Source: Pseudomonadota bacterium
Lineage (GTDB): Bacteria > Desulfobacterota > Desulfobulbia > Desulfobulbales > Desulfocapsaceae
Direction: 5' to 3'
Assembly: GCA_018821785.1 (NCBI GenBank)
Contig: JAHJLI010000106.1
Location: 1-64,000 of the forward strand
DNA: 64,000 nucleotides
How positions within the stretch are numbered: position 1 is the stretch's first letter; the number at the start of each line of letters is the position of its first letter. Below the pieces are notes generated by a model. That model searched no databases and was not told where the DNA came from. It worked only from the letters and a program-made list of their open reading frames with translations. Both the position numbers and the translations under genes were made by a program. Of this stretch, positions 9,930 to 49,834 are shown piece by piece.

Positions 9930-11255
9930 TTATAGGCAAACAAGGTACCAAAAAAGACCAGCACTGCCAGCCCCGCCTATTATAGAAATGATGCCGACTT
10001 TGTAAAACTGCATCAAAGAAAATGAAATGGTGGCGACAATTGCCGAAAACCAGGAAAAACCCTCTGCCGGGAGGAGAACATGGGTGCCGAACCAGACGCC
10101 CAGATTAAAAACAACGCCTACCACGGCCGGGGTAATAGTGGCCAGCGCGGCAGACATTTTGCTGTTGCCGGCCAGTCGTTCGATATACGGGGCCCCGAGA
10201 AAAATAAAGAGAAAGCTCGGGAGAAAAGTGAAATAGGTGGCAACAAGAGAACCGGTGACGGATCCGAGAAAGGGTCCAAAGTTTGTTGGATGATTAAAGC
10301 CAGCTAGAAATCCGACAAACTGCACAACCATGATAAGCGGGCCGGGTGTCGTTTCGGCAAGCCCCAAACCATCCATCATCTGCAGACTGGTAAGCCAACC
10401 ATATTGCTCAACGCCTGCCTGGGCGATATAGCCAAGCAGGGAATAAGCGCCGCCAAAGGTCAGAAAAGCAGCCTTGGTGAAGAAGAGGGCCTCGGTGGCA
10501 AAGATTGATTCCGGAAGGAGATAATGAAGTCCAAGAAAAGGTATGCCCCATAAAGCAATGAAGACCGCCAAAAGCATCGCGGTTCTGGAAAGAGAAGGGT
10601 AAGCACTGTCGTGAGCGGTGGTCCTCTCAACCGAGAAGGACGTTCCGTCTGGTTTTTTACCAGGTAAAAAGAGATTTGGGAAAAATTGGCTGCCAACAAT
10701 TCCGATTATTCCAACCGAGAGAATGAGGGCCGGGAAAGGGAATTTAAGGAAATAGGTAACGAGAAAGGATATTGCGGCAATTGCGATCAACAGATTGTTT
10801 TTTAGTGATTTTTTGCCGATTTTGATCACTGCCGCAAGGACTATCGCAAGTACTGCGGCTTTCAGTCCGGAAAATATTGCCGCCACCCATGGCAGGGAGC
10901 CGAAAGTGATATAGATAAAGCTGAGAGCAAAAAGAATAAATACCGAAGGCAGGACAAAGAGCACGCCAGCAGTAATTCCGCCGCGGGTTTTATGAAGAAG
11001 CCAGCCGATATAGGTGGCGAGCTGCTGGGCCTCTGGTCCGGGCAGGAGCATGCAGTAATTGAGAGCATGCAGGAAGCGGTCATTGCTTATCCATTTTCTT
11101 CGATCAACCAGTTCCTGGTGCATGATAGCGATTTGGCCAGCAGGGCCGCCAAAACTAATCCAGCCGAGTTTCAGCCAGAAGAGAAAGGCTTCTTTGAAAG
11201 AGGGTGTGACCTGTTCAGGTTCTATGATTTTTGTGTTGGGATCTGAAGGAGTCAT
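9930..11255 (-). CDS. chrA: Chromate transporter, ChrA family (two-domain)
   Basis: FLFWLKLGWISFGGPAGQIAIMHQELVDRRKWIS...LNYCMLLPGPEAQQLATYIGW; second half FFTKAAFLTFGGAYSLLGYIAQ...GLAETTPGPLIMVVQFVGF. Confidence 0.95.
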   Translation of the reverse strand: MTPSDPNTKIIEPEQVTPSFKEAFLFWLKLGWISFGGPAGQIAIMHQELVDRRKWISNDRFLHALNYCMLLPGPEAQQLATYIGWLLHKTRGGITAGVLFVLPSVFILFALSFIYITFGSLPWVAAIFSGLKAAVLAIVLAAVIKIGKKSLKNNLLIAIAAISFLVTYFLKFPFPALILSVGIIGIVGSQFFPNLFLPGKKPDGTSFSVERTTAHDSAYPSLSRTAMLLAVFIALWGIPFLGLHYLLPESIFATEALFFTKAAFLTFGGAYSLLGYIAQAGVEQYGWLTSLQMMDGLGLAETTPGPLIMVVQFVGFLAGFNHPTNFGPFLGSVTGSLVATYFTFLPSFLFIFLGAPYIERLAGNSKMSAALATITPAVVGVVFNLGVWFGTHVLLPAEGFSWFSAIVATISFSLMQFYKVGIISIIGGAGSAGLFWYLVCL

Positions 11256-11348
11256 ATATTTACCATGAGTTTATTGAGAAGCTGGTATCGTCTTGCAGAA
11301 AAACAAGGCAGAAACGACCAGTTGAGTTGTAATTGTTGATTATCCTTG

Positions 11349-12356
11349 TTAGTTGATTTCTGTTAACGAAAGATATAGTGCTTCAAAAACCTCAATACCC
11401 TGTTCAAGTGTCTCGTTGTCTGACAGCGCTTTTTTGCGGATGCCTCTCAGCAACATTTCAATACCTTGGATTTCAGGTGCCGAAAATTTTTCATCTTTTA
11501 TGTCTATGTTGTGGACAATTGCGGCAAGAGCGTTGAGTCCATTGGCGGTCAGACCAAAACTTTTCAGCAGTACTTCGAAGGTGCATAAATCTTCGAAGTG
11601 GGTGAAATCTCCATAACGAACGTCAAACGCGACCTCGTTTGCGCCTTTCAGATTCTTCAGATCACCCTCATCCCGGAAGACAAAAGTCGCTTGCGGGTCG
11701 ATGAAGCGTCGAATCAGCCATGCGCAGGCCATTCTGTCGACAAAAGGTCTCTTGCGTGTTACCCATCGCAGGTTGGAATATTTTTCAATTTTTATTCCCT
11801 TGGATAATACATTCCCGGCAAATGTCCTTGTTCCTTTTTTGATTGCGGTGAGCGTCTCCAACTGGCCTTTTAGGGCCTGGAGCCGACCTACCAGACTCTG
11901 ACCCGATTCCGACTTAAAAAAATCGCGGTTGTGCACTGTGTGGAAATCGGCCTGGATCTTTTCAAACTGTCTGAACAGGGAGATGGATTTTTTGTCTTTG
12001 CCGCCCTTGCGCAGGTTGTCAATTCTACCGGATAGTTCATCGATCTTTTTGCCAACTTCCTGGTACTGCAGGTGCCGCTGCTCATTGAACAATGCTATGA
12101 TCTCCTGCTGCTGCAAAGGTTCTATGGTCTCAGTGGTGACAAGAAGTCCTTCTCCTTTAAGTCCGGGAAGTTCGGCAAGCATCCATTGAAGGGCTTCATG
12201 GTTGTCTTCAAGGTAGGGAAGGACGTAAACCCCGCCCTTCAATTGAACCGCCCCGGTTTTTTGTAGTTTGCGCCAAATCTTTACCCGGTTTTTCACCGGG
12301 GTTGCCGGGATGGAATAAAAAAACAGCAGCCATTTTAGGGTCTGAAAACCTTGCAT
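11349..12356 (-). CDS. chrB: Chromate resistance protein ChrB-like
   Basis: N-terminal ChrB region (LFFYSIPATPVKNRVKIWRKLQKTGAVQLKGGVYVLP) and C-terminal domain (WVTRKRPFVDRMACAWLIRRFIDPQATFVF). Confidence 0.9.
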   Translation of the reverse strand: MQGFQTLKWLLFFYSIPATPVKNRVKIWRKLQKTGAVQLKGGVYVLPYLEDNHEALQWMLAELPGLKGEGLLVTTETIEPLQQQEIIALFNEQRHLQYQEVGKKIDELSGRIDNLRKGGKDKKSISLFRQFEKIQADFHTVHNRDFFKSESGQSLVGRLQALKGQLETLTAIKKGTRTFAGNVLSKGIKIEKYSNLRWVTRKRPFVDRMACAWLIRRFIDPQATFVFRDEGDLKNLKGANEVAFDVRYGDFTHFEDLCTFEVLLKSFGLTANGLNALAAIVHNIDIKDEKFSAPEIQGIEMLLRGIRKKALSDNETLEQGIEVFEALYLSLTEIN

Positions 12357-12603: not shown

Positions 12604-12870
12604 TCACTTCTTGCTTGGCAGGACTGGCAGTTGTTCTTCCAGCGCCGGGGAGGAGGTGTAGAATTTGGCCTCTTTGTCAGAGAGTTTGCCCTGTTTCATC
12701 AGGAGCCGGATCTCCTCTACATTTACAGTTCGAGGTTTTCCGATGGATGCGGATGTCGTGGAATCTTGCCACAAGCCTCTTAGTTCATTGCAGCGGTGCA
12801 GGGACAGGGTAAAAATCACCAGTGCCATTGTACCAACTGCAACGAGGTATGCCGCTTCAATTTTTCTCAT
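12604..12870 (-). CDS. Small single-TM protein at the 3' end of the AmmeMemoRadiSam operon
   Basis: MRKIEAAYLVAVGTMALVIFTLSLHRCNELRGLWQ...RTVNVEEIRLLMKQGKLSDKEAKFY; start overlaps the end of the upstream gene by 14 bp (coupled). Confidence 0.65.
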   Translation of the reverse strand: MRKIEAAYLVAVGTMALVIFTLSLHRCNELRGLWQDSTTSASIGKPRTVNVEEIRLLMKQGKLSDKEAKFYTSSPALEEQLPVLPSKK

Positions 12871-15800
12871 GGCGGCACCTGTCACATTGCAGACAATCCA
12901 GGTCCGTTTGCCGGTGAACACCCATATCGCATAAGTCGGGCCTGGTTTTTGGGAGGAAACGACGGAGAAGGCGAATTCCACCTAAAAGGGCCAGAAAAGC
13001 ACCGGCTGGGCAGAGGTTTCGGCACCAAAAACGCCTGAAAAAGTAAGAGAGGACGAGAAGGCAGAGGGCGAGGATAATCACCATTCGGTTGCCCGCCGCT
13101 CCAAAAATGGTGATGAGCGGGTCGGCGTCAAGTACAGTTAAATCACGGGTCAATGCGAAAAGGAGTATGAAGAGTAAGAGTACGATATACTTGCAAAAAC
13201 GTCCATAACGCCACACCTGTCTTTGTGGGTCTGGAAGGATTTGTGTTGGTCGGAGATCACCGATTAATTCCTGAATTGCGCCAAAAGGACATAGATATCC
13301 GCAATAGACATTGCCAAACAGCACAACCATTCCAGGGACGACTGCTATGAGGAAAAATGCGCTACTGACAATCTCCAAGGAAAAATTGCCTGAGAGGAGT
13401 GCCATGACCTGCTGAGATGCGTACTGGTGATTAAGAACTATCCCAAACAGCACCAAAGATACTGTCAGAATAAGACGTCTCGTCCAGCGACCAGGCCGAT
13501 AACGCGCGGCAAGGACAACAAAACTCCATACCACAAACGCTGCGAATTGCCACGGTGGACCTGCAGAAAAGGAGGTGGTCACATCCCCCTGAGCAGGTCG
13601 ACCGAGTACGACCTCGCCGAAACCACTCGACGATCTGGTGATCGTTTTCAAGATGGCAGCGGATGACATCGTAGCCCCGGACACCGCATCTATTCCTTGT
13701 AACCCATTGGCTGTGAACAGCTCTTTTTCTTTTAAGGTTTCCAGCCAGCCGCGTAGAAATGCCAGATAAGCTGGAGTTTCGTTCGATGGGAGGATGCGAA
13801 AATTTTTCAGAACGCCGAGGTCATCTATCCAGATAGCGAGAGGGATCTCCCCACCATAGCCCCTGACACCTCTTGCTAGCGGTGTCGAAGGGAAGAGGTA
13901 TCCACCGGGCACAAGGTAGTAGATAAAGGTCGTGCCATCCGTAAGAGTTGCCTTCTGTTCCTGACGCTTGAGGGTGCCGGCCATTTCGGCTGCAGCGGCT
14001 TGAAAGTTTTCAATCTCATGGTCACTCTGCGTTAAATGGAAACCTTGGGAAACAAGCATGGAAAATGCTCCGACCCCCACAAACAGGTATCCGAAGGGTC
14101 GTCGGTTTCTATCAAACCAGTCGCGAATTACGGTAGAAGCGGCTTCTTGTCGGGCAATCAGGGACATGAGATTGATGACGATCACTGTGGTGATCAAGAC
14201 CAAAAATGACGCCCTTGTTCCCAGAAGAGGCAATAATATAAGGCCGGTGGCCAAAGCACCCACAGCTCCGCCAACATGATCCAGCAATTCCAGTCGTCCG
14301 GCCGCGGCCTCTACCCCGTATCCACTTGTATTCAAACACCTTGCCGCAACTGGAAAGTACAACCCGGAGAAAACACCGACAGTCGTGAAAAACACACCCA
14401 GAGCTAACCGTGAAGCCTCGACAGGCGATTGGAAAATAAAGATTAAGAACAATATCGTCTCGCAAGCAGTTATGGTCAAAATGATCTGGGGAATGGCAAT
14501 TCTTCTCTGCAGCAGGAGTCTTTCACAGGCAAATCCACCTAGTGCCGAGCCAAGCATGAACAAAGATGAGATCAGCCCAATATCGAGGAACAGGGATCCA
14601 AATCGAACCTGATAACAAAACATGAGGACCACCGTCGCAGACATGCCGACCAATCCAGCCGTAAAAAGCATGGCTTGGATCTCAAAGAGATTCAGAGATC
14701 TTTCTTTTTTTTGTGCAGATGCTGACAGGAGTGAGTTCCTCAGGTAAGAAAAGCGCAGCAGGCCGTAGAGAAAAATCCCGACATGGCAGATCCACGTTCC
14801 ATTGTCGACCAGGAATACCGCCGCCCGGGCGACGGGGCCCAGCCCCGCACGGCGGAGGGTGAGCAGCATGTCAAAGAGGAGGGCCTTCGGGTGGTTGTCG
14901 GTATTCTCTAGGAGATTTTTTCCATATTTTTCTTCAGCAGAGCGGTACCTGTCTTTCTGAAAAGCGATGCGGTCTTGTTGAAAGGCGGCGAGCAAGCCTT
15001 CTTTCGGATAGAGCTGTGAGGAGCCTTCAACTGCTGCAAAACCTTTGGCCAGAACCGAGGGCGACTCGCTGAGGATATCTTCCGTTGCGGCAAAAAAAAA
15101 GCTCTCATCGCCAGGTTTTAACGCCACCCGGGGGAAAACCGATGACAGCGTTGTGAGTGTCGAAGCACCGGCCAAGACACGTTCGCCACTGAGATAATTG
15201 GCTCCACCTGATACCCTGACAGCACAGATCCCGGCAGGCGCGAGAACGTTTTTTACAAGGGCGAAGAAGGCCTTCGAAAAATAGCGGTTGAGGACAAGGG
15301 TGGTTGCCTCTGGGAGATTGACGATCACAAGATCAAATTTTTTCTCGGTCTGTTGCAGGTACGCTCGCACCTCTATCTGGGGAGCATTCACATGGCCGAC
15401 AGAATTTCGAATCTTGTTTGGCAATACATCAAAGATCTTTTTTGGAAACTCTGGATCGGGGTACAGCCAAACAACGTCATGAATCTGAGGAAGTACCTTG
15501 AGCCGACTGGCAATCGCAGGACCGCCCGGACCGACGATGAGCACATTTGCAGCAACAGGGTTCTGTGCGATCGCCCAGGCGGCGACTTCTGAGGCATGCT
15601 CCTTTTCGGGAAGGGCTTCAATCACGCCCCCTTCAGTCATGACGATGAAATCGCCATCTCGTTCACCATACAGATACTGCGATTGGGCGGTGATGAAGCT
15701 GCCTTTATAGGTATCGACCGGGAGCAACCGGCTCCACTGGGAGCGGGCCGCATGGTTCGAAGCGAGGTCACCGATTATTCTTATGGTAAACAATGCCATC

Positions 15801-16423
15801 ATCGCTATGCTTGCAACGAGGCACCACCGCAGCAGACTCATCCGATCCGGTATATACCGAGCAAGCAGCGCAGTGCAAAGCACCAGTGCCGCATAGAGAA
15901 AGACCTTTTCTCCTGGCATCCCAAGAACAAGGAGCCCTGTAACAAAAAGCCCGCCGACGAATCCTCCGAAAGTTTCCAGTATATAGACACGGGCAACAGG
16001 CAGGGCAAATGTCCCCGCCACCCAGGTGCAGGCCATGGAAAAAAGAAATCCGGTAAGAAAACTTGTTGGGGCGTTGGCGAGAGAGGCAAAAACCAGCAGC
16101 GACGGGAGAGGCACCAGCACAAATGACTCAAGACCAAGGATTGACCTGGCCCTGTAAATCAGCTGGTGCTGGATGAAAGAGGCCGGGAGATAGAGCAGCG
16201 GAAAGAAAAGGAAATGGGGCAGAGCCGCAGGAAACCCCAAGGAAAAAAGCCTGCCGGCAACAGCACCAATGCCCACCCAGAGCAGCCACGACCCGAAGAA
16301 AGTTCCGACGGCGATTTCGTTGCCTTCAAGCGAAGAGAGAAAGTCGCGAAACAGCAGGGTTTGCGACACCAGAGCAAAGAATCCCAGTGCGGCAATGGGA
16401 ACTTCACTCGTCAGTCTTCTCAT
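12857..16423 (-). CDS. Multidomain membrane protein: spermidine-synthase-like MFS-type region + FMN-binding domain + NosR/NapH-like 4Fe-4S domain
   Basis: N-terminal TM helices; central Rossmann-like VLIVGPGGPAIASRL; second TM block; FMN-attachment-like DAVSGATMSS; C-terminal YCGYLCPFGAIQE, FWCRNLCPAGAF, CLQCDRC. Confidence 0.85.
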   Translation of the reverse strand: MRRLTSEVPIAALGFFALVSQTLLFRDFLSSLEGNEIAVGTFFGSWLLWVGIGAVAGRLFSLGFPAALPHFLFFPLLYLPASFIQHQLIYRARSILGLESFVLVPLPSLLVFASLANAPTSFLTGFLFSMACTWVAGTFALPVARVYILETFGGFVGGLFVTGLLVLGMPGEKVFLYAALVLCTALLARYIPDRMSLLRWCLVASIAMMALFTIRIIGDLASNHAARSQWSRLLPVDTYKGSFITAQSQYLYGERDGDFIVMTEGGVIEALPEKEHASEVAAWAIAQNPVAANVLIVGPGGPAIASRLKVLPQIHDVVWLYPDPEFPKKIFDVLPNKIRNSVGHVNAPQIEVRAYLQQTEKKFDLVIVNLPEATTLVLNRYFSKAFFALVKNVLAPAGICAVRVSGGANYLSGERVLAGASTLTTLSSVFPRVALKPGDESFFFAATEDILSESPSVLAKGFAAVEGSSQLYPKEGLLAAFQQDRIAFQKDRYRSAEEKYGKNLLENTDNHPKALLFDMLLTLRRAGLGPVARAAVFLVDNGTWICHVGIFLYGLLRFSYLRNSLLSASAQKKERSLNLFEIQAMLFTAGLVGMSATVVLMFCYQVRFGSLFLDIGLISSLFMLGSALGGFACERLLLQRRIAIPQIILTITACETILFLIFIFQSPVEASRLALGVFFTTVGVFSGLYFPVAARCLNTSGYGVEAAAGRLELLDHVGGAVGALATGLILLPLLGTRASFLVLITTVIVINLMSLIARQEAASTVIRDWFDRNRRPFGYLFVGVGAFSMLVSQGFHLTQSDHEIENFQAAAAEMAGTLKRQEQKATLTDGTTFIYYLVPGGYLFPSTPLARGVRGYGGEIPLAIWIDDLGVLKNFRILPSNETPAYLAFLRGWLETLKEKELFTANGLQGIDAVSGATMSSAAILKTITRSSSGFGEVVLGRPAQGDVTTSFSAGPPWQFAAFVVWSFVVLAARYRPGRWTRRLILTVSLVLFGIVLNHQYASQQVMALLSGNFSLEIVSSAFFLIAVVPGMVVLFGNVYCGYLCPFGAIQELIGDLRPTQILPDPQRQVWRYGRFCKYIVLLLFILLFALTRDLTVLDADPLITIFGAAGNRMVIILALCLLVLSYFFRRFWCRNLCPAGAFLALLGGIRLLRRFLPKTRPDLCDMGVHRQTDLDCLQCDRCRHEKN

Positions 16424-18027
16424 AGATCGCTCTCACTAAAGACGATGGCCTGAAAGACAGTAAACGATGCACCCTCCATCCAGGCATCCGCCGGTAGTCC
16501 GGCCTTCAGGGCGAGCTGCGAAAGCATTTCTTCGAGCCCCCAACCCTGTTCAGGGGCAACCTGGGGGAGAAACACGGCGCTTCGCCCGTTCTTTTGCAGA
16601 ACGACTCCGTCGCGACCGACAACAATGTCAAGGTAGGAGGCGACCGGCGTGGGCGGAGTGAGGGCGGAAATCTCAAAGGAGAGCTCACTGAATTCATTCT
16701 TGTGCACCGCCGAAAATCTGGAATCATGCACTGCCGCATCTATGGCGCGGTGCATGACCGCCTGGTATAGCGGTCGTACCGGCGTGATCTCGCCGATGCA
16801 GCCTCTAAGATTTTCATGCTTTTTCAATGTTACAAAGGCGCCCATGATCTGCTGCATTCCAGGGGTGATCTCTATGCCCAACTTCTCCGGTGTCGGAGGC
16901 ACCCCCTTGTCCAAATATTGTTGCAAAGTGCCTTTTGCCAGTGCCATGAGCCGGCTCTTATCATCCTGAGACAATCCGTGGCTCTTGGGAGCCTTTTCTT
17001 CTTTTACAATTGCCTCCCAGTTGCCGGTGACGGCAGCGCTCAGGTAACTGACCGAGGAGGAAAAATCGTGAGTCTTGGCACCGGAGGTTTCATAGTGTAA
17101 CAGCTGGATACGACTTTTTGCTGGAAGCATGGCCAGTAAGACCTCGATCGCCGTTTGGCCGCAGATGGTTGCACCTGTCTTCTGCACATAGGAAGCAAAA
17201 CCACGAGAGTTTTGCTCTTCAATCAGTTTGAAAGCCCCCATATCAAGTTTTTTCAAGTTTTCCGGTATATCTGCAGTGAAGGGAAGATAACCAAAATTGC
17301 TGCCATAATGGGTGAAGTCGCTGGACGCTACCACCAAAGTATCAGGGGTCAAATGACGCCGCAGGATGTCAGCGACAGCCTGGGTCGAAGCGCTGTCAAG
17401 CCTTCCGAGAACAATGGGGACAAAAAGGAACTCTCCCAGTCTTCGCTGCAAGGCCGGAAGCAGAATCTGGACGCTGTGTTCGCTTTCATTGGCGGCTGGG
17501 ATGACATGGAAGTAACGAGATTGTAACAGTTCCTGAATAAGATCTACATCAAGGGGCGTTTCAGCAAATGGCGTGGCATAGTGGGTCGCATCAGGAAGGC
17601 TGGCAGAATTTTGGAGAAGGACATGATGGGAAGGCCCGAGCACGATGACTCTGCGAATTTTTGCCACTTCAATCTGTTTGATGCCATAGGCGGCAGTTTG
17701 TCCTGACCACTGGAGTCCGGCGTGAGGCATAATCAAAGCGCAGACCGGAGGAAGAACCCTCTCGGGAACGTTGAGCATGTAGCCATCGATTGCCGCGGAC
17801 AGCTTGGCCGAATCGGCATCATACCAGGTGCCGGCAAAGGGTGAGGGGAAGATTTTTTTGTTGGCGGAAGTTTTATCGGTATCTTCCTGCGATGTCAGGG
17901 CGTTCTGCCCACCTTGCTGAGAAGGTGCAGATCCAACGTTTCCTGCGACTGCAAAAGGGGTTTGCTGAATAAGTGTCAACCAGATCACGAGAAAGAGAGT
18001 GATAACAAGATGTTTGTGCATCGTCAT
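16420..18027 (-). CDS. Exported MEMO1-AMMECR1 fusion (AmmeMemoRadiSam system proteins B+A)
   Basis: N-terminal signal-peptide-like segment; MEMO1 (GTWYDADSAKLSAAI, IMPHAGLQWSGQTAAYG, VVASSDFTHYG); AMMECR1 (LRGCIGEITPVRPL, DSRFSAVHKNEFSELSFEISALTPP). Confidence 0.92.
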   Translation of the reverse strand: MTMHKHLVITLFLVIWLTLIQQTPFAVAGNVGSAPSQQGGQNALTSQEDTDKTSANKKIFPSPFAGTWYDADSAKLSAAIDGYMLNVPERVLPPVCALIMPHAGLQWSGQTAAYGIKQIEVAKIRRVIVLGPSHHVLLQNSASLPDATHYATPFAETPLDVDLIQELLQSRYFHVIPAANESEHSVQILLPALQRRLGEFLFVPIVLGRLDSASTQAVADILRRHLTPDTLVVASSDFTHYGSNFGYLPFTADIPENLKKLDMGAFKLIEEQNSRGFASYVQKTGATICGQTAIEVLLAMLPAKSRIQLLHYETSGAKTHDFSSSVSYLSAAVTGNWEAIVKEEKAPKSHGLSQDDKSRLMALAKGTLQQYLDKGVPPTPEKLGIEITPGMQQIMGAFVTLKKHENLRGCIGEITPVRPLYQAVMHRAIDAAVHDSRFSAVHKNEFSELSFEISALTPPTPVASYLDIVVGRDGVVLQKNGRSAVFLPQVAPEQGWGLEEMLSQLALKAGLPADAWMEGASFTVFQAIVFSESDL

Positions 18028-18105
18028 ACCTCCTGTTAGATGGATACATAGTATGAAGAGTAGAAATTATGAGCATCGGTTGCGGTTCATTTGGGTAACA
18101 GAGCT

Positions 18106-18294
18106 TCAACCCGCCCATTTTCCCTGACGGCTGACACTTTCTTTGTCGAGAGGACGAACAGGTCCAGGATACTTTCTCCCACGCAAGGCTCTAACAACGC
18201 GGCTATCGCTCGTCTTTCGCATCCATATAGCAATCGGTACAGCAATGAAAGCGCACAGTGCCGTCACTTGCAATAAAAAACCTCTACGATTCAT
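18106..18294 (-). CDS. 62-aa small protein with Tat-like signal/anchor
   Basis: MNRRGFLLQVTALCAFIAVPIAIWMRKTSDSRVVRALRGRKYPGPVRPLDKESVSRQGKWAG; ATGA overlap with the radical SAM stop codon. Confidence 0.65.
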   Translation of the reverse strand: MNRRGFLLQVTALCAFIAVPIAIWMRKTSDSRVVRALRGRKYPGPVRPLDKESVSRQGKWAG

Positions 18295-19262
18295 AACCAC
18301 ACCCCGTATATCTCGAAATGGCAACGTGGACATCTGCCGTTTTCTATGTTGTTTTTTAGAACTTGAAATGCCCGGCGCTCGACCAGGAGGTCGCGACATT
18401 CCGGACAGAAGGTGTTTTCGCCGTCGGGTATCAGGATGTTGCCAAGGTAAACATAGTAGAGACCAGCATTCCTGGCAATCTCGCGAGCCCTGATCAGTGC
18501 TGCTGCCGGAGTTGGCGGCAGATTCTTCATTTGGTAGTTGGGGAAAAACCGCGAGAAATGCAATGGTATCTCTCGGCCCAGGTTCTGGACAATCCACAGG
18601 CAGAGACTGCGAATTTCCTTGTCGCTGTCGTTCAACGTCGGGATAAGAAGGTTGATCACCTCGATATGGATTCCTAGCGATCTGGCTGTAACCAGACTGT
18701 CCAGCACGGGTTGCAGCGTGGCGTTACAGATATCCCGGTAGAACTTGTCGGAAAGGGCCTTGAGGTCGATGCGCACCGCATCCACCTTTCGGCAAAGCTC
18801 CGCCCATGGCTCGCGGTTGATGTAACCGGCAGTAACTAGTGCGTTTTTCAGTCCTGCTTCCCGGACGAACACCGAACTGTCCACAGTATATTCGTAATAA
18901 ACGACCGGGTCGGTATAGGTGTAGGATACAGACCTGCAGCCATGTTCAACAGCCAACTTCGGAATCTCAGCCGGAAGAAGCTTGGAAGCCGCAACTTTCT
19001 CCGGATTCTGTTGAGAAATCTCCCAGTTCTGGCAGTTCTTGCAATGAAGATTGCAGCCGACAGTGGCTATTGAAAGGCTGGTACTCCCTGGAAGAAAGTG
19101 GAAAAACGGCTTTTTTTCGATCGGATCCACATGCACTGTACAAGGATATCCGTAAGTCACTGCAACCAGTTTGCCGTCGAGGTTCACCCGTATGCGGCAC
19201 TCACCACTTTGGCCGGGTTCCATAAGGCATCGTTTGGGACATAGATCACAGCGGATAATCAT
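18291..19262 (-). CDS. AmmeMemoRadiSam-system radical SAM enzyme
   Basis: CDLCPKRCLMEPGQSGECRIR; radical SAM motif CNLHCKNCQNWEISQ; C-terminal CPEC...CPRC zinc-ribbon-like. Confidence 0.93.
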   Translation of the reverse strand: MIIRCDLCPKRCLMEPGQSGECRIRVNLDGKLVAVTYGYPCTVHVDPIEKKPFFHFLPGSTSLSIATVGCNLHCKNCQNWEISQQNPEKVAASKLLPAEIPKLAVEHGCRSVSYTYTDPVVYYEYTVDSSVFVREAGLKNALVTAGYINREPWAELCRKVDAVRIDLKALSDKFYRDICNATLQPVLDSLVTARSLGIHIEVINLLIPTLNDSDKEIRSLCLWIVQNLGREIPLHFSRFFPNYQMKNLPPTPAAALIRAREIARNAGLYYVYLGNILIPDGENTFCPECRDLLVERRAFQVLKNNIENGRCPRCHFEIYGVWL

Positions 19263-19353: not shown

Positions 19354-21267
19354 TCAGCCCGAAGGACTCTCGCAGACACTGGTGTCGGGTGGGTAGAGAT
19401 CTTCGAGGATGAGGGTTGTGGTAACTATCTGCTCTTCTCTTTGCACCTTTATTACAATAGTGCTGCCAGCTGGTCCACGCAGAATATGACGCAAGGGGAC
19501 AGCCGGGTGGTTCGGGCCGACAGCTTGTCCGGCCAACTCGACAATGATATCGCCGGCAGCAAGGCCGGCCTTGACCGCCGGACTGTTGCTGGCGATATAG
19601 GAAATCATAGGCTGATTGTTTTCAGCTCGGCCGATAATCAGGCCGGATTTGTCACGCGGAAAGGTCACGTTGAAGCTTTTACCTTCTTCTAGAATTATTT
19701 TCTGCTGGGGATAGTTGAGAAAAAGATGAAAATGGCGCAGGGTGGAATTGCCGAGATTGCCGCCGACTTCGCCCAATGCAGTTGCCCCAACTCCTTTTTC
19801 AACGGGAATGGCAATGAGCGGCAGATGCAGCTGGAAACGGTCGATCTGCAAGCAACTGAATTGGATGTTAATTTCGCGGGAAACACCGGACAATCCCTGG
19901 CTGACAATTTCCACCCCTTTTCTCTCAATAAGACCGTGTTTTTCGGCAAAGGGGTAGTGAATTGAACTGTGGTAGGAGCCAAGATCAAAACTCCAGAGGC
20001 TTTTGAATTTGCCGTCGACGGTCACCGGTAGAGCAAAAGTCCGGTATTTCAGGGGAGCATCGACGGTCACTCCTGATCCCTTATATACAAAGGATTCAGG
20101 ATCGTGGAAGGTGACTTGTCGCAGGTCGTAATCGATTTCTACCACAAAGCGCGAAAGAAAGTCGTAACCGAGAATGCCGACCGTCACCGGTTCATAGCTT
20201 TTTGCGGCAAGACCTTTGGATACAAACAATTTTTGGCTGGCGAATTGGATAGAGCCGACCCGGTACTCGGGCAATTTGACGAAGGAGAGGTCAAATAATT
20301 CGCCAAAGCCGTATCCCCTGATACTTCCCTGGACATCAAGGCCGTGTTTTTCGGCGTACTCCTGGTCGATAACCGACATGGAGGCGCCACTGTCGAGCAC
20401 CCAATATTGGGTGTCGCCGCCGATGGTGACCGGTAGATAGATAAGATTTTCAATGAATTCAAAGGGGATAGTTGCCGAGGTGTCACCGTCACGAAAATGA
20501 TAGCCCTTCTCCTTTTGCGGCGGTAAAAAGAGTTTTGCATCGACACCTTGGTTACTGGTGTAGGAGGTGGTCCAGGTCTCTTCGGTTTTTTTCCAGGGAT
20601 GAAAGGTATTGTGCTGGTGAAAGGGCATGATGATGCCGTTAACCTCTTTGTAATCGTCGTAAAAGCTTTCAATCTCCATGTCCGGTTGGCGATAGAGGGA
20701 ACGGACCATGAATAGGGTTTGGCTGTCGAAGAAGAAGTGGCCAATATCACTGTTGATGGTGTTGCTGAGTACCACCTCGTAACAAGGTCGGCCTTTGACC
20801 TTGCTTATCCCGGCGAAGGTCATGGAAAAATTGGGCGATTGCCGGTCAAGGTGATCATATCGGTCGAGCAATACACTGATGCGCCTTCGTTTCAGGGTTT
20901 CCTCGTCCCTGACGATCAGCTGTTGTCCGTTGGTGTCATAGAACCAGGCAAACTCTCCACTATCACCCTCAATCTGAGAGATGATTGAATAATCTTCTTC
21001 GGTTCGATATTGCAGAGGCCTGTTTTCCCAATGATTGAAGGTTCCCTGCAGGCCGTCGTAGTGGACTCGGCCCTCGCTGTGGCTGTTGATGACGTTTTTG
21101 AGACGCTCCAGGCCACCGACCGCCGCATAATGGCGATGCATGATCTGATAGGGGTCGGAGAGGTCGATGATTTCTTCACTCGCAAAAGCCGGCAAGGTGC
21201 ATAGAAAGGAAAGAAGAATAAAGAGTATTTTGAATGACCCAGGAAAGTAACCCATTTTACGCTCCAT
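19354..21267 (-). CDS. Exported retropepsin-like aspartic protease with PDZ domain
   Basis: Signal peptide; YWVLDSGASMSVID (DSGA); second related domain LWSFDLGSYHSSIH; C-terminal PDZ (SYIASNSPAVKAGLAAGDIIVELAGQAVG). Confidence 0.82.
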   Translation of the reverse strand: MERKMGYFPGSFKILFILLSFLCTLPAFASEEIIDLSDPYQIMHRHYAAVGGLERLKNVINSHSEGRVHYDGLQGTFNHWENRPLQYRTEEDYSIISQIEGDSGEFAWFYDTNGQQLIVRDEETLKRRRISVLLDRYDHLDRQSPNFSMTFAGISKVKGRPCYEVVLSNTINSDIGHFFFDSQTLFMVRSLYRQPDMEIESFYDDYKEVNGIIMPFHQHNTFHPWKKTEETWTTSYTSNQGVDAKLFLPPQKEKGYHFRDGDTSATIPFEFIENLIYLPVTIGGDTQYWVLDSGASMSVIDQEYAEKHGLDVQGSIRGYGFGELFDLSFVKLPEYRVGSIQFASQKLFVSKGLAAKSYEPVTVGILGYDFLSRFVVEIDYDLRQVTFHDPESFVYKGSGVTVDAPLKYRTFALPVTVDGKFKSLWSFDLGSYHSSIHYPFAEKHGLIERKGVEIVSQGLSGVSREINIQFSCLQIDRFQLHLPLIAIPVEKGVGATALGEVGGNLGNSTLRHFHLFLNYPQQKIILEEGKSFNVTFPRDKSGLIIGRAENNQPMISYIASNSPAVKAGLAAGDIIVELAGQAVGPNHPAVPLRHILRGPAGSTIVIKVQREEQIVTTTLILEDLYPPDTSVCESPSG

Positions 21268-21878
21268 TACCGGACCATAACTTCAACCCGGCGATTCCTC
21301 GGTTCAGCAATGTTATCGGCTGTGGGGATGAGCGGGTTACCTTCGCCATGATAGATGATGGTCATATCTTCCCCGGTGACCTCTTCAGAGCGGAGGATAT
21401 TGTAGACCAGTTGGGCCCTTTCGAGCGAGAGTTTGCGTTTATATTCGTCGCGCCCTGTCCGGTCGGTATGGCCGATTACCGAGATATCCCGGGACTGGCG
21501 TTTCTTTATGGCTACCAGGATATTGTTGATCTGTTTTTTCGATTCATCGGTTAATTCGTTGGAATTAAATTGGAAATAAAGGATGAAACTTTCAGGCATA
21601 AGGGGATGCACCCGCAATGCGTCCTGAAAAACAAGTTGGGTTTCGGCTGCGTTGATTGGTGTAGGGGTGGAAGGTGCGGAGTTGCGGTCGCCGATGAAAA
21701 TAGCCTTTCCATCTTCAGTCAGAACCTCAGAGCCCTTTTCGGTAACAACCTTCAGAGCACCCACGGAACCGTCGTTTGTCGGACTGAGTACAACGAAATT
21801 TTCCTTGGTCCCGCAACCGGCCATCAGGATAGCTGCAGCGAGAACGATTACGCTTTTCCAGTTCATGTGTTTTTCCAT
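21267..21878 (-). CDS. OmpA-family peptidoglycan-binding lipoprotein
   Basis: Lipobox-like LMAGC; OmpA C-terminal ISVIGHTDRTGRDEYKRKLSLERAQLVYNIL...NRRVEVMVR. Confidence 0.9.
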   Translation of the reverse strand: MEKHMNWKSVIVLAAAILMAGCGTKENFVVLSPTNDGSVGALKVVTEKGSEVLTEDGKAIFIGDRNSAPSTPTPINAAETQLVFQDALRVHPLMPESFILYFQFNSNELTDESKKQINNILVAIKKRQSRDISVIGHTDRTGRDEYKRKLSLERAQLVYNILRSEEVTGEDMTIIYHGEGNPLIPTADNIAEPRNRRVEVMVR

Positions 21879-21949
21879 TCTCAGAGGTAAAGGGACTTAA
21901 CCCCTCAAAGGGGCATTGAAAAGAGGACTGTATTTGTTCTCTTTAATTG

Positions 21950-22417
21950 TTACTGAGCGTTTTCAGCAAACTTTGCCTTGAAGCTGGTATCCTCCTTCAG
22001 CATGCTGATTCGTCCGACCGGTGTATTGAGTTCCACGGCATATGGGGCAAGTTTGCCGAGCAATCCAGACTGGTAGACAAAGGTGCCGTGTTGCATATTG
22101 AGACGCATGGCATATTCATTTGTGGCCGGGGCAAAGGTGTATTTATCCATGGAAACCCGGCTGATCGGTCCCATGGAGATGAGGGTATTGTCTTCGAGCA
22201 GGATTCCTATTGCTCCGTCCGAGCCTGTAAGGATTGTGTCGCTCTGATAGATACGGTCATTAGGGAAAGCCGGTTTGGTCTTGCCATCTCTCTGGATGGA
22301 GACCAAACCACGAAGTCCTTTTACCTTGCCGATCACTTTTTGCTCGGCAAATGCCGGAAGGGGGAGGATACAGATCAGCAAAACAGCCAAGCAACAGTGA
22401 GAGGCAGTCTTTTTCAT
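21950..22417 (-). CDS. FecR-domain protein (exported)
   Basis: Signal peptide; GLVSIQRDG...DTILTGSDGAIGILLEDNTLISMGPISRVSMDKY. Confidence 0.85.
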   Translation of the reverse strand: MKKTASHCCLAVLLICILPLPAFAEQKVIGKVKGLRGLVSIQRDGKTKPAFPNDRIYQSDTILTGSDGAIGILLEDNTLISMGPISRVSMDKYTFAPATNEYAMRLNMQHGTFVYQSGLLGKLAPYAVELNTPVGRISMLKEDTSFKAKFAENAQ

Positions 22418-22469
22418 TGCAGTTCTCCAGAGTCAGGTACATCTTTGGCGCCGATTCACCCGTAGAAAG

Positions 22470-23867
22470 TTACAGTTGCTTGAGACTACTCGCGGCATAG
22501 CCTTTGAGTTTTCTGTGCGGGGCTTCCTTTGCCACCTTGCTGAGAGTCGCCTTGTACTTGCTCTGGCCTGATGCACCCAAAGCCTTGCACAGCCAGGACA
22601 AGGTGTCAATACGGTCATTGCGGTCATCGCCGCTCGCCTGATATTCTTTTAGCAACACTCTTTCCACAGCATCGAGCACCACCGTGTCGCGAAGTTTCGC
22701 TTTGACCATCAGTCGTGCCGCGTCTTTTTGTTCCTTGGTATTGTTTGATTCAATCATCCGCAAGTATTTTGCCTGTCCGGAAGTGAGCTGGTTGCTCTGT
22801 TGTGGAGGCGGCGGAGGAGGCGGAGGCGTGAAGGTTTCTTTTCGCACGGTTATAGATGGTTTTACAGGTGGCTCATCAGGAGTGGCACTGCTTGCGACGA
22901 GATTCATTGAGACGCTTCTGTCCTCATTTCTCGCAAGTGTAACCCATTCTCTGGCAGATTTAAAGCCGGTCGCAGTTGCTTCGATATGATACGGTCCAGG
23001 GTCGAGAACCATGCCCGCTTCGTATGTCTGGGAAATGTTCAAGATGCGGATTTTTGCGTTGGCCGGTGAAACATTGACGGTGAGTCGAGCTTTCTTGGGT
23101 GTTGTGTCGATCAAGCTTTTCACTTGCTGACTGTAATTAACGGATCCGGGGCTGGCCTCCTCATCTATCCTGGCGGTGCTGATTTTCTGCGCAATACTGG
23201 TGATGGTGACTTTCCCCGTTTCAATGCGCTCTACATCAAGGACCTCGCCGGTCTTGGGATGTTTTATAATCTGCCCCTCTTTGAAAACGATAAAACGCAT
23301 ACCTGTTTTTACACCGGTGCGTAAACCCAGGTCGAGGGTAACCGAGTCACCGCTCCGATTGACCACATAGCCAAAAAGGGGAAAGTTTTTGATGATTTTC
23401 CCCGACATCTCTATGACCATATCCTGCAGTTTGGCGGTGGCGACACTTTTAACATTTTCTGCAGCAATAATAGAGGCGCTTTCGACATCGATGATACGAG
23501 CGTTGATTTCGGTGACATCCCGAAACTTCATAACCGAGCCGGTAATGATAACCTTGACGCCGAGGAGCTTTCCTATCTGGGTGGCACTCGTGGCATCGAC
23601 GACTCCGGTCATCGCCAGCTGCTGTTCACCGAGAATTTTTTCCAGCATTCTTCTTTCGACAACGTCGAAGCGGCCTTCGCGGACCATGGCGGTGATGAAC
23701 CATTCAGCGACAATAGTTCCCATATCCTTGTTATCGAAGTTTTCCCCCTGCAGTTGGAAATCGAGCACGGCAATTTTGGTTTTGCTGAATTCGGCCGAGG
23801 CGCAGAGGGGAACAAAGAAAATGATTGCAAATAAAAACAAAATGTTGGTTAAACTTCTCATTCGCAT
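22470..23867 (-). CDS. CsgG/HfaB-like protein with PEGA-like repeat and polyproline linker
   Basis: KIAVLDFQLQGE...VAEWFITAMVREGRFDVVERRMLEKILGEQQLAMTGVVD...GVKVIITGSV; RLTVNVSPANAKIRILN; PPPPPPPP. Confidence 0.8.
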   Translation of the reverse strand: MRMRSLTNILFLFAIIFFVPLCASAEFSKTKIAVLDFQLQGENFDNKDMGTIVAEWFITAMVREGRFDVVERRMLEKILGEQQLAMTGVVDATSATQIGKLLGVKVIITGSVMKFRDVTEINARIIDVESASIIAAENVKSVATAKLQDMVIEMSGKIIKNFPLFGYVVNRSGDSVTLDLGLRTGVKTGMRFIVFKEGQIIKHPKTGEVLDVERIETGKVTITSIAQKISTARIDEEASPGSVNYSQQVKSLIDTTPKKARLTVNVSPANAKIRILNISQTYEAGMVLDPGPYHIEATATGFKSAREWVTLARNEDRSVSMNLVASSATPDEPPVKPSITVRKETFTPPPPPPPPQQSNQLTSGQAKYLRMIESNNTKEQKDAARLMVKAKLRDTVVLDAVERVLLKEYQASGDDRNDRIDTLSWLCKALGASGQSKYKATLSKVAKEAPHRKLKGYAASSLKQL

Positions 23868-23897
23868 CTCCTGGTCAGGGAATAGAAAATCTTCTCG

Positions 23898-25040
23898 CTA
23901 TTGTAAATTCAAGGCAACTCGATTGCCCGCAACATTGGTAACTACCAGCTTGGTCTCGTCAACTGCCTTGCTGTCGACTCGGTCACAAAAACTTTCGGCA
24001 CTTCCTTTAAAGAGAACTGAGAGTTCCAGCTTGCCGCCGCCGAAACTTCTCTTGGTAACCGAGACAACACCCTCGGTATCTTCCAGTACCTTGGCTGCGA
24101 TTTTTTGCAAGCCGTAGCTTTTCACGCCGGAGATGACAATGTCGTAAGTAGCGCCGTTGTTAACGGTATCCTGGAACGAGGTTACTATCGCCTCGAAAAG
24201 TTTTTTGTTCATCAGATTGGTTGCCGCTTTAGTGACTGCCTGGGATTTGGCAATATCGTCGGCGATATGGACCGATGCTCCAGTTGCCGATTTGGTTGCA
24301 ACAATGCGACCGTTTGAGCAGTTGACAACCCTTAAGGTGAGGCTTGCCTGGCCGGATTTCATGCCGGTGCCCTCTATTACCTCATTGGCCAGAACACTTT
24401 TTGTGACTGTCCCTACCACCACATATTCCGCGCCATTTTCCGCTCCAAGTTTGGCTGCTGCCACCGGGTCGCCTGCTATAGCCTTTTTTATAAACGGATC
24501 ATCTTTAGCCATCAGCGCTGCCGCCTGTGCCGGGTCAATCAGCTCAAAACCTTTGCCCTGGAGATAATCGATAACAGTACTTTCAGCATTTTGTCCCCCT
24601 TCTTCCTGGATGAGGACCATAGTTCGGGGTTTATCCATGGAAATAAGGAGAATCTTCAAGGCCATCAAATCGGCGGTAATCGAATCTAAAGAGACAATCG
24701 CACTGATTTTGACGTACCAGGTGTCTCCTTTTAGCTCTTCTTTAATGACGGTATAACTGCGAACAGAGCCGAAACTCTGGGTGATGACTTTGTCTTTTTT
24801 CAGCATGAAGTTCTCGACCTCGGTCTGAGAACTGAGTACAACCCCGATGCCTTCTTCGACCGCCGCTCTTTTTGCCTGTAAAAGGGCTTCTTGTTTGGAG
24901 GCACCGTATCCCTCTGCGGTAATGGTCTTGTCGCCGGTGACCTTGACTCCGGTGGCTTTTGTTCCTGTGGGTTGGGCTGCGAGTACCGTGCCTGGGATGA
25001 GAAGCAGAACGAAAAGCAATGCCAACAAAAGGTCTTTCAT
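23898..25040 (-). CDS. Exported FlgT/LPP20-like protein
   Basis: Signal peptide; AEGYGASKQEALLQAKRAAVEEGIGVVLSSQTEVENFMLKKDKVITQSFGSVRSYTVIKEELKGDTWYVKISAIV. Confidence 0.7.
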   Translation of the reverse strand: MKDLLLALLFVLLLIPGTVLAAQPTGTKATGVKVTGDKTITAEGYGASKQEALLQAKRAAVEEGIGVVLSSQTEVENFMLKKDKVITQSFGSVRSYTVIKEELKGDTWYVKISAIVSLDSITADLMALKILLISMDKPRTMVLIQEEGGQNAESTVIDYLQGKGFELIDPAQAAALMAKDDPFIKKAIAGDPVAAAKLGAENGAEYVVVGTVTKSVLANEVIEGTGMKSGQASLTLRVVNCSNGRIVATKSATGASVHIADDIAKSQAVTKAATNLMNKKLFEAIVTSFQDTVNNGATYDIVISGVKSYGLQKIAAKVLEDTEGVVSVTKRSFGGGKLELSVLFKGSAESFCDRVDSKAVDETKLVVTNVAGNRVALNLQ

Positions 25041-48553: not shown

Positions 48554-49834
48554 TCAGGGCTGAGCGGCAGGCCCAACAGCGATAATTTGGAGTTCTTTGA
48601 GTAGTTGGTTCCTGTTGTTTTCTGTTTGATTGAGGAGAATTGCAAAGGGAATAAGTGTGTCACCTTTCGGGAAGTAACCTGCAAAGCAGTAGACACCGGT
48701 AAGGGTACCGCTTTTCAACGGAATTGTCTCCCGTAAACTAAGGAGGGGGGCAAATGGTTTAAAGCGGTTTAAAATTTGGATGAAGGTGGATGGACTGATC
48801 CGGTTTTGCCTGGACAACCCGGCTCCCTCCATCATCACCAGGAGACCTATAGGAAGGCCAAGGGTGATGGTGCTATAATCGATAAAAGCTTGCCTTGATT
48901 TTTCCCAAGTGGCAGGCAGGCCGTAGGTGTAAATACCACACGCCAAAAAAAGCTGATTGGCTATGAAATTGTTGGAATATTTTAGACAATCCTTGATGAT
49001 TCCTTCCAGAGTTGCTTGACTCTTATGGATAAAAATAGGCTTAAGATTATTGGGTGTTGTCTGAGTTTTCCAAGGATGCCGTATGGTAATGCCAGCTTGT
49101 TGCAGTTGCGCCGAAAAAAGTTCTCCGGCATAACGAAGAGCAGATGGTTTCCCTGGCTTTGAAGGAAGCATGTCGATGTTCAGACGATGTAACCCGGGCG
49201 TAAGGCCGACGCTGATTTCTTGCATCAGGGGGAGGAACGGGGTCTGTGATTCACTTGAGCTGACCTTGCCCTTTTCGCCGACCAACAACGAAACGGCATT
49301 GAAGTTGACAGCCAGAGCGCCGTTTGGAGCATCGTAACTCTTTACAGAATTTTCCTCGCTTGCAGTTTCACCTCGTAGATCAAAGGCGGTGTCATCCAGG
49401 CAGATGGAAAGCAGTTGACGTATGCCCATTTGCGAGAGTTTCATGCTGATTTCTAGTACAATCTCCGAAGTAAGAAGAGGGTCGCCGTATCCTTTGATAT
49501 AGAGATTCCCCTGCCCATCAAGGAAAAAATGCGTTTCAAAACGATACTCAGGGCCAAGAAATTCCAAGGCGACCAGGCTTGTAAAAATTTTCATGATGGA
49601 GGCGGGAACAAAAAGATCATTTTCCCGGTATTTGTGCAGGCCACTGCCGTCTTCGATGATATATCCGCCGTTGTTGATCAGGTGCTGCTGGTTTTCCTGG
49701 GCACAGGCAGGCTGCGGGATAAAAATGCCGATTGTGCAAACCAGGAGAAAGAATTGCTGGAAAAAGGTGAGCATGCCAGGCATCCTTTTCAGGAGAAGCC
49801 GGTATATTTGGCAATTGTCCATATTCAATTTCAA
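48554..49834 (-). CDS. dacB: D-Ala-D-Ala carboxypeptidase/endopeptidase, PBP4 (S13) family
   Basis: SxxK (PASIMKIFTSLVAL), SxN (YSNNFIANQLF), KSGT motifs; signal peptide. Confidence 0.88.
   Translation of the reverse strand: MKLNMDNCQIYRLLLKRMPGMLTFFQQFFLLVCTIGIFIPQPACAQENQQHLINNGGYIIEDGSGLHKYRENDLFVPASIMKIFTSLVALEFLGPEYRFETHFFLDGQGNLYIKGYGDPLLTSEIVLEISMKLSQMGIRQLLSICLDDTAFDLRGETASEENSVKSYDAPNGALAVNFNAVSLLVGEKGKVSSSESQTPFLPLMQEISVGLTPGLHRLNIDMLPSKPGKPSALRYAGELFSAQLQQAGITIRHPWKTQTTPNNLKPIFIHKSQATLEGIIKDCLKYSNNFIANQLFLACGIYTYGLPATWEKSRQAFIDYSTITLGLPIGLLVMMEGAGLSRQNRISPSTFIQILNRFKPFAPLLSLRETIPLKSGTLTGVYCFAGYFPKGDTLIPFAILLNQTENNRNQLLKELQIIAVGPAAQP

Follow-up and report, generated by a model that had tools for sequence, protein, structure and literature searches.

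An AmmeMemoRadiSam operon with an FMN/Fe-S membrane protein, predicted to work outside the cytoplasm

A stretch of 64,000 nucleotides (the window) from a bacterium of the family Desulfocapsaceae (assembly GCA_018821785.1, contig JAHJLI010000106.1, positions 1 to 64,000) carries a five-gene operon on the minus strand (12604–19262), which encodes a radical S-adenosylmethionine (SAM) enzyme together with Memo and AMMECR1. These three families make up the AmmeMemoRadiSam system, and the trio found here looks as if it had been shifted outside the cytoplasm with its own membrane electron supply. By sequence, the operon belongs to AmmeMemoRadiSam; what is new is a predicted export branch and, within it, a subtype putatively fed by a protein with flavin mononucleotide (FMN) and iron-sulfur (Fe-S) modules. 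On the sequence evidence, the system as a whole is likely to work outside the cytoplasm. With a smaller margin of confidence, we favor the view that the operon is an extracytoplasmic AmmeMemoRadiSam pathway, whose radical SAM enzyme would be exported as a hitchhiker through the twin-arginine translocation (Tat) system and would receive electrons from the FMN/Fe-S protein.

Results

Radical SAM enzyme of the operon belongs to an export clade

The first gene of the operon (18291–19262, minus strand) encodes a 323-aa radical SAM enzyme, which matched the AmmeMemoRadiSam family TIGR04337 with 373 bits (cut-off, 220). Its CxxxCxxC motif is located at C70, C74, and C77, and is invariant among 11 aligned export-type members. 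A total of 141 loci, consisting of the window and 140 stretches around matches to the radical SAM or spermidine-synthase-like protein, were annotated with profiles built in this study, and a tree was constructed with no region other than the radical SAM core. It was split with 100% support into a cytoplasmic clade (40 members) and an export clade (87 members from 39 family-level groups), and the enzyme of the operon was placed in the latter, also with 100% support. Tat-like N-termini were observed in 79 of the 87 export-clade enzymes, comprising 69 with a strict RR or RK pair plus a hydrophobic region and 10 variants of the KR and RRxA types (e.g., TKREFL and TRREAL), and in 0 of the 40 cytoplasmic ones. 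The remaining eight export-clade enzymes are exactly those of the FMN/Fe-S-linked loci, namely the window, G004, G001, G139, G104, G067, G086, and G433, where the link in G001 and G067 is partly lost at contig ends and was assigned from near-identical neighbors. These eight enzymes form one group (95% support) inside or beside the Tat-type enzymes.

Apart from the operon type, eight loci (L126, L130, L134, L136, L143, L155, L160, and L164) contained two adjacent radical SAM genes, one of the Tat type and one of another subfamily. The latter, with the N-terminus AYEKLExEGKLAQRI, has a twin-arginine signal too and is a candidate for a further radical SAM subfamily that is exported. In 6 of 40 family groups (L170, L180, and related loci), a DUF362 protein whose N-terminus is of the twin-arginine type is also encoded near export-type radical SAM genes. 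A reading of the operon as a defense system was discarded, the sole match being a generic radical SAM one to a viperin model (8e-4).

A twin-arginine mini-protein accompanies the enzymes that have no signal

The radical SAM enzyme of the operon has no signal peptide, and none is possible on its open reading frame (ORF) because at most approximately 11 in-frame codons lie upstream of the start. Its gene shares an ATGA overlap with a gene for a 62-aa protein (18106–18294), which starts with MNRRGFLL, continues with a hydrophobic stretch, and ends in a short tail (...SRQGKWAG). The twin-arginine signal is kept in the congeners. Such a mini-protein of 44 to 68 aa is encoded directly downstream of the radical SAM gene in 8 of 8 FMN-linked loci. 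The 77 Tat-type loci and the 53 plain ones had no comparable gene; the few mechanical matches there were unrelated frames. The association with the signal-less enzymes was significant both per locus (Fisher, 4e-13) and by family group (4/4 FMN-linked versus 0/39 others, p = 8e-6). The first profile pass detected relatives of the 62-aa protein in the genus only, and the distant mini-proteins, like the counterparts of the 88-aa protein described below, were located by position and motif. Since the signal-less enzymes are exactly those with a twin-arginine mini-protein downstream, the simplest reading is that the 62-aa protein is a signal supplied in trans, that is, a predicted partner that directs the radical SAM enzyme to Tat. 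TatC is encoded in the host genome. Export of the operon's own enzyme by way of this partner appears somewhat more probable than its retention.

Alternatively, the radical SAM enzyme of the FMN-linked operons may stay in the cytoplasm, and the 62-aa Tat protein may be a peptide substrate or messenger, which is modified inside and then exported to act together with Memo-AMMECR1. The operon's enzyme does lack a signal, and the C-terminal tails of the mini-proteins are short and conserved (KGDRxAG and PGKWAG), resembling modified peptides encoded beside radical SAM genes. However, other members of the clade carry their own Tat signal and have no mini-protein, so that a mini-protein acting as substrate would make the FMN-linked loci an exception. 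Furthermore, the tail of the G086 mini-protein holds GLKEAQFYK (p = 2e-4 by shuffling), a segment that many other relatives of the radical SAM enzyme have ahead of their core and that the signal-less enzymes lack; this points to a split-off N-terminus, although the tail of the operon's 62-aa protein gave no significant match to the segment (p = 0.17). A cytoplasmic enzyme with an exported peptide thus seems unlikely. The narrower proposal that the 62-aa protein is a copy of the KEAxFY segment was not retained either, being supported in G086, weakly supported in two other groups, and not significant for the operon itself.

Memo and AMMECR1 are predicted to be exported as a rule in the export branch

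Memo and AMMECR1 are fused in a single 535-aa protein with a Sec-type signal peptide (16420–18027), encoded two genes downstream of the radical SAM gene. The initial annotation had described such a fusion, and profile searches agreed with it: the Memo domain (17029–17838) and the AMMECR1 domain (16438–16944), the latter containing the RGCIG motif, scored 185 and 160 bits, respectively, both above the cut-offs. An N-terminal signal or anchor was seen in 37 of 37 Memo proteins with an intact N-terminus encoded beside export-type genes. The corresponding numbers were 0 of 30 for the stand-alone Memos of relatives and 0 of 1 for the Memo beside a cytoplasmic-type gene (L064). The export that had been predicted for the operon's fusion protein is therefore a rule of the export branch, and an extracytoplasmic location of Memo-AMMECR1 is very probable on the basis of these signals. 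In addition, Memo/AMMECR1 was encoded within 6 kb of the radical SAM gene in 44 of 94 export-type and 2 of 40 cytoplasmic-type loci (p<1e-6); these denominators are restricted to loci that the radical SAM search had selected, and the 94 include copies left out of the tree. The residues that align with H49, H81, and C244, the iron/copper ligands of human MEMO1 (PMC11081632), are all conserved in the operon's Memo domain, as fits a LigB-like metalloprotein.

The 1188-aa protein contains a putative FMN/Fe-S conduit

The fourth gene (12857–16423) shares an ATGA overlap at 16420–16423 with the MEMO-AMMECR1 gene and encodes a protein of 1188 aa, described initially as an FMN/Fe-S membrane fusion. 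This description applies to the C-terminal third, in which an FMN_bind domain (13640–13861, 36.7 bits) and a NapH/NosR-like Fer4_5 region (12959–13366, 55.5 bits) were found, and it overlooked a second module at residues ~1–770. The FMN_bind domain carries the flavinylation motif DAVSGATMSS (Thr 918); SGATMS fits the covalent-FMN pattern [S/T]G[A/S]TX[S/T], and GAT is invariant across six proteins. The two CX3CP motifs of the Fer4_5 region, at C1041/C1045 and C1134/C1138, are both invariant across the six proteins as well. Based on the charge distribution of stand-alone homologues (positive-inside rule), the FMN domain is predicted to face the outside and the CX3CP motifs the inside. The extracytoplasmic location of the FMN domain has been demonstrated experimentally for PceC (PMC5928378). 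ApbE is encoded in the host genome.

The FMN/Fe-S subfamily is rare, occurring in 8 of 395 genomes of the phylum (E≤1e-30). Its gene adjoins an export-clade radical SAM gene in 6 of the 8 genomes, including every full-length match, and the other two matches are a contig-end fragment (G122) and a weak match (G435). The gene neighborhood thus gave no refutation of the proposed link between the exported MEMO-AMMECR1 protein and transmembrane FMN/Fe-S electron delivery, but supported it. The small proteins are likewise tied to AmmeMemoRadiSam loci, since their counterparts recur at the same places elsewhere. The last gene of the operon (12604–12870), which overlaps the 1188-aa gene by 14 nt, encodes an 88-aa protein with a single N-terminal transmembrane (TM) segment and a tail containing GKLSDKEAKFY, and its counterparts lie directly after the FMN/Fe-S gene in other loci. 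The order in groups f26 and f45 is FMN/Fe-S, small TM protein (70 to 92 aa), radical SAM, twin-arginine mini-protein, and Memo. Compared with these, the operon has its parts reshuffled and joins the FMN/Fe-S and spermidine-synthase-like proteins in a single chain. A similar fusion of 1189 aa was found in another family (L193 of G433), and a genome-contig scan with the 1188-aa protein yielded one relative, on the same contig as G004. Fer4_5 proteins encoded near some Tat-type genes were set aside; they are ordinary ferredoxin-type NapH-like proteins without FMN_bind and fall outside this subfamily.

From the predicted topology, we infer that electrons would flow outward through the conduit, and the chance that they are passed to the radical SAM enzyme appears about even. 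The conduit might instead feed Memo, at a non-heme iron/copper site, or a quinone, in which case the operon would be a periplasmic redox or metal-handling device and the radical SAM step a maturation. Consistent with this idea, the Memo metal ligands are conserved, human MEMO1 binds iron and copper (PMC11081632; PMC9477392), and several periplasmic oxidoreductases are served by NapH-like flavinylated proteins (PMC8238504). On the other hand, Memo and AMMECR1 are equally present with Tat-type radical SAM genes that have no FMN/Fe-S partner, and the conduit tracks the signal-less radical SAM type and no type of Memo. Delivery to Memo or a quinone in place of the radical SAM enzyme is accordingly given little weight here.

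A spermidine-synthase-like module and a second, cytoplasmic set

Residues ~1–770 of the 1188-aa protein form a module that resembles the major facilitator superfamily (MFS) and matched the PRK03612 type of long, membrane-bound spermidine synthase-like proteins. PRK03612-type matches were obtained in 104 of 297 genomes of the phylum, mostly as frames of ~700–800 aa. Of the loci selected by the radical SAM search, 39 of 94 export-type ones had a spermidine-synthase-like gene at a distance of at most 6 kb, against 1 of 40 cytoplasmic-type ones (p<1e-6). Among 54 homologues, the SAM-type ribose acid is kept in 48, the second Asp in 54, and the catalytic Asp in 7. In the operon's module, Tyr replaces the ribose-binding acid and Asn replaces the catalytic Asp. 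Because the catalytic Asp is lost in most homologues and in the operon's module, aminopropyl transfer is unlikely. The spermidine-synthase-like domain (15044–15640) is flanked by two TM bundles. Family-average hydropathy gave seven TM segments before the domain, and the even loops are richer in positive charge (17.7 versus 5.2); this family topology, obtained by a crude method, suggests that the domain is extracytoplasmic. The idea that the module moves or senses SAM is speculation. An AlphaFold model of residues 1–800, made from two sequences only, had a mean predicted local distance difference test score of 36.7 and was unused for a fold search.

The host genome (G000) encodes a second TIGR04337 gene (C46), Memo (C237), and AMMECR1 (C48) on three different contigs, and this second radical SAM enzyme and Memo have no signals. 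Relatives with one Memo mostly have the stand-alone kind, and those with two have a stand-alone Memo plus a fused Memo-AMMECR1 of ~500 aa like that of the operon. The operon thus comes on top of the ordinary cytoplasmic system and does not replace it.

The complete cytoplasmic set, together with the loss of the catalytic Asp and the ribose-binding acid in the 1188-aa protein, would also suit a decaying spermidine-synthase-like module in an operon that is a degenerate copy beside a working set. However, the radical SAM cysteines, the Memo ligands, the FMN motif, and the CX3CP motifs are all intact, and five open frames with translational overlaps are maintained at ~75–89% protein identity across the species of the genus. 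A remnant is therefore very improbable.

Operon structure and neighboring genes

ORF calls confirmed the five minus-strand frames of the initial annotation, with their overlaps and coordinates. The MEMO-AMMECR1 gene is separated from the 62-aa gene by a 78-nt gap and is preceded by an AGGAGG site. Scans for promoters and terminators revealed no pattern above chance, and the overlaps suggest that the five genes form a single transcript. The operon is also present in two congeneric genomes (L102 and L104, the latter cut by a contig end), and the same parts were found together again in other families. This recurrence, in the genus and of the parts in other families, exceeds chance.

The next gene upstream of the operon encodes an aspartyl-protease/PDZ protein of 637 aa; 91 nt separate its end from the radical SAM gene, and its position is kept in the genus. 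It belongs to an upstream, same-strand series (19354–25040) of aspartyl protease/PDZ, OmpA-like, FecR-like (by eye), CsgG/FlgO, and FlgT_N-type genes, whose order beside the operon is conserved in G004 and G001; it is possibly an envelope gene cluster. Directly downstream of the operon and on the same strand (9930–12356) are genes for a ChrB-like protein (11349–12356) and a two-domain chromate transporter (9930–11255). Genes of equal size (340 and 406 aa) follow the operon in G004, and none were seen beside export-type loci elsewhere. The window contains another radical SAM protein (Radical_SAM_N2 plus DUF2344; 49831–52395, minus strand), which is unrelated to the operon.

Discussion

Gene order and its conservation, clade membership, the signals of the partner proteins, and the motifs can be read from the sequences themselves, and the following model is built on them. 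Memo-AMMECR1 would be secreted by Sec. The radical SAM enzyme would fold and acquire its Fe-S clusters in the cytoplasm before Tat export. The signal that it lacks would be provided in trans by the 62-aa twin-arginine mini-protein (hitchhiker export), which may also hold the enzyme at the membrane. Electrons would be accepted by the Fer4_5 part on the cytoplasmic side and move on to the FMN attached covalently on the outside; the FMN could then reduce the cluster of the radical SAM enzyme, the metal site of Memo, or both. Handling of SAM or SAM products may fall to the MFS-like/spermidine-synthase-like module, and the 88-aa protein probably serves in assembly or docking as a subunit. An isoprenoid or another envelope substrate would fit the extracytoplasmic location. 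The complete version of this model, a radical SAM reaction outside the cytoplasm with a Tat-exported enzyme, electrons from the Fe-S/FMN protein, and an MFS-like/spermidine-synthase-like protein that moves SAM or SAM products, is tentative and seems rather doubtful as a whole.

Several points weigh against the extracytoplasmic pathway. The Tat signals were called from motif and hydrophobicity rather than by a trained predictor. The seed alignment of the phylum search held Tat-type members, and 79/87 therefore describes the sampled loci and is no unbiased census. The export of the operon's radical SAM enzyme rests on the association with the mini-protein because the enzyme has no signal of its own, and the FMN-linked loci number only 8, from 4 family groups. 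The FMN/Fe-S partner is absent from most Tat-type loci, so the conduit is not generally required. The SAM-ribose acid is lost in the 1188-aa protein and its closest relative, though kept by most homologues. To our knowledge, free SAM is not known in the periplasm. In the literature searched, no radical SAM enzyme was described as exported, periplasmic, or secreted. Outside that literature, Burroughs et al. (2019, J Biol Chem) reportedly covers more Memo genome contexts, suggests a modification of nucleotide bases and isoprenoids, and may already mention secreted Memo.

Memo and AMMECR1 are conserved from archaea to humans, are linked to human disease, and have no assigned reaction. The AmmeMemoRadiSam trio is widespread, known, and named, and no assigned function was found for it in the literature searched. 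As far as we know, radical SAM enzymes are treated as strictly cytoplasmic, SAM and low-potential electrons being there. If the proposal is true, radical SAM chemistry would, unusually, run outside the cytoplasm. An export branch that is widespread and has an electron conduit to itself would then violate the cytoplasm-only rule and raise the question of how SAM gets out. The exported version would also offer a new handle on Memo and AMMECR1, as it would narrow the substrate to the envelope and could be knocked out while sparing the cytoplasmic set.

The operon contains the same three families as the cytoplasmic AmmeMemoRadiSam system (TIGR04335/04336/04337). It differs from that system in having one exported Memo-AMMECR1 protein, an export-clade enzyme, and additional membrane FMN/Fe-S and spermidine-synthase-like modules. 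We know of no Tat hitchhiker export of a radical SAM enzyme. Hydrogenases and formate dehydrogenases are exported as Tat hitchhikers (PMC10924467), and the operon likewise has a signal-less, folded Fe-S enzyme beside a twin-arginine partner; unlike the known partners, the candidate here belongs to a type of only 44–68 aa and is mostly signal. The conduit shares with the NapH-like proteins NosR and PceC/RdhC (PMC8238504, PMC5928378) a predicted extracytoplasmic FMN_bind domain, a covalent-FMN motif, TM helices, and two CX3CP motifs predicted to lie on the cytoplasmic side, but it partners an AmmeMemoRadiSam set and no reductase, and an MFS/spermidine-synthase-like module of 770 residues is fused to it. 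In its main text, the flavinylation survey (PMC8238504) mentions neither AMMECR1 nor radical SAM. As in PRK03612-type proteins (homologues of ~780 aa), the spermidine-synthase-like domain of this module sits between two TM bundles, whereas, in contrast to spermidine synthase proper, it has no catalytic Asp and is linked to export-clade AmmeMemoRadiSam genes.

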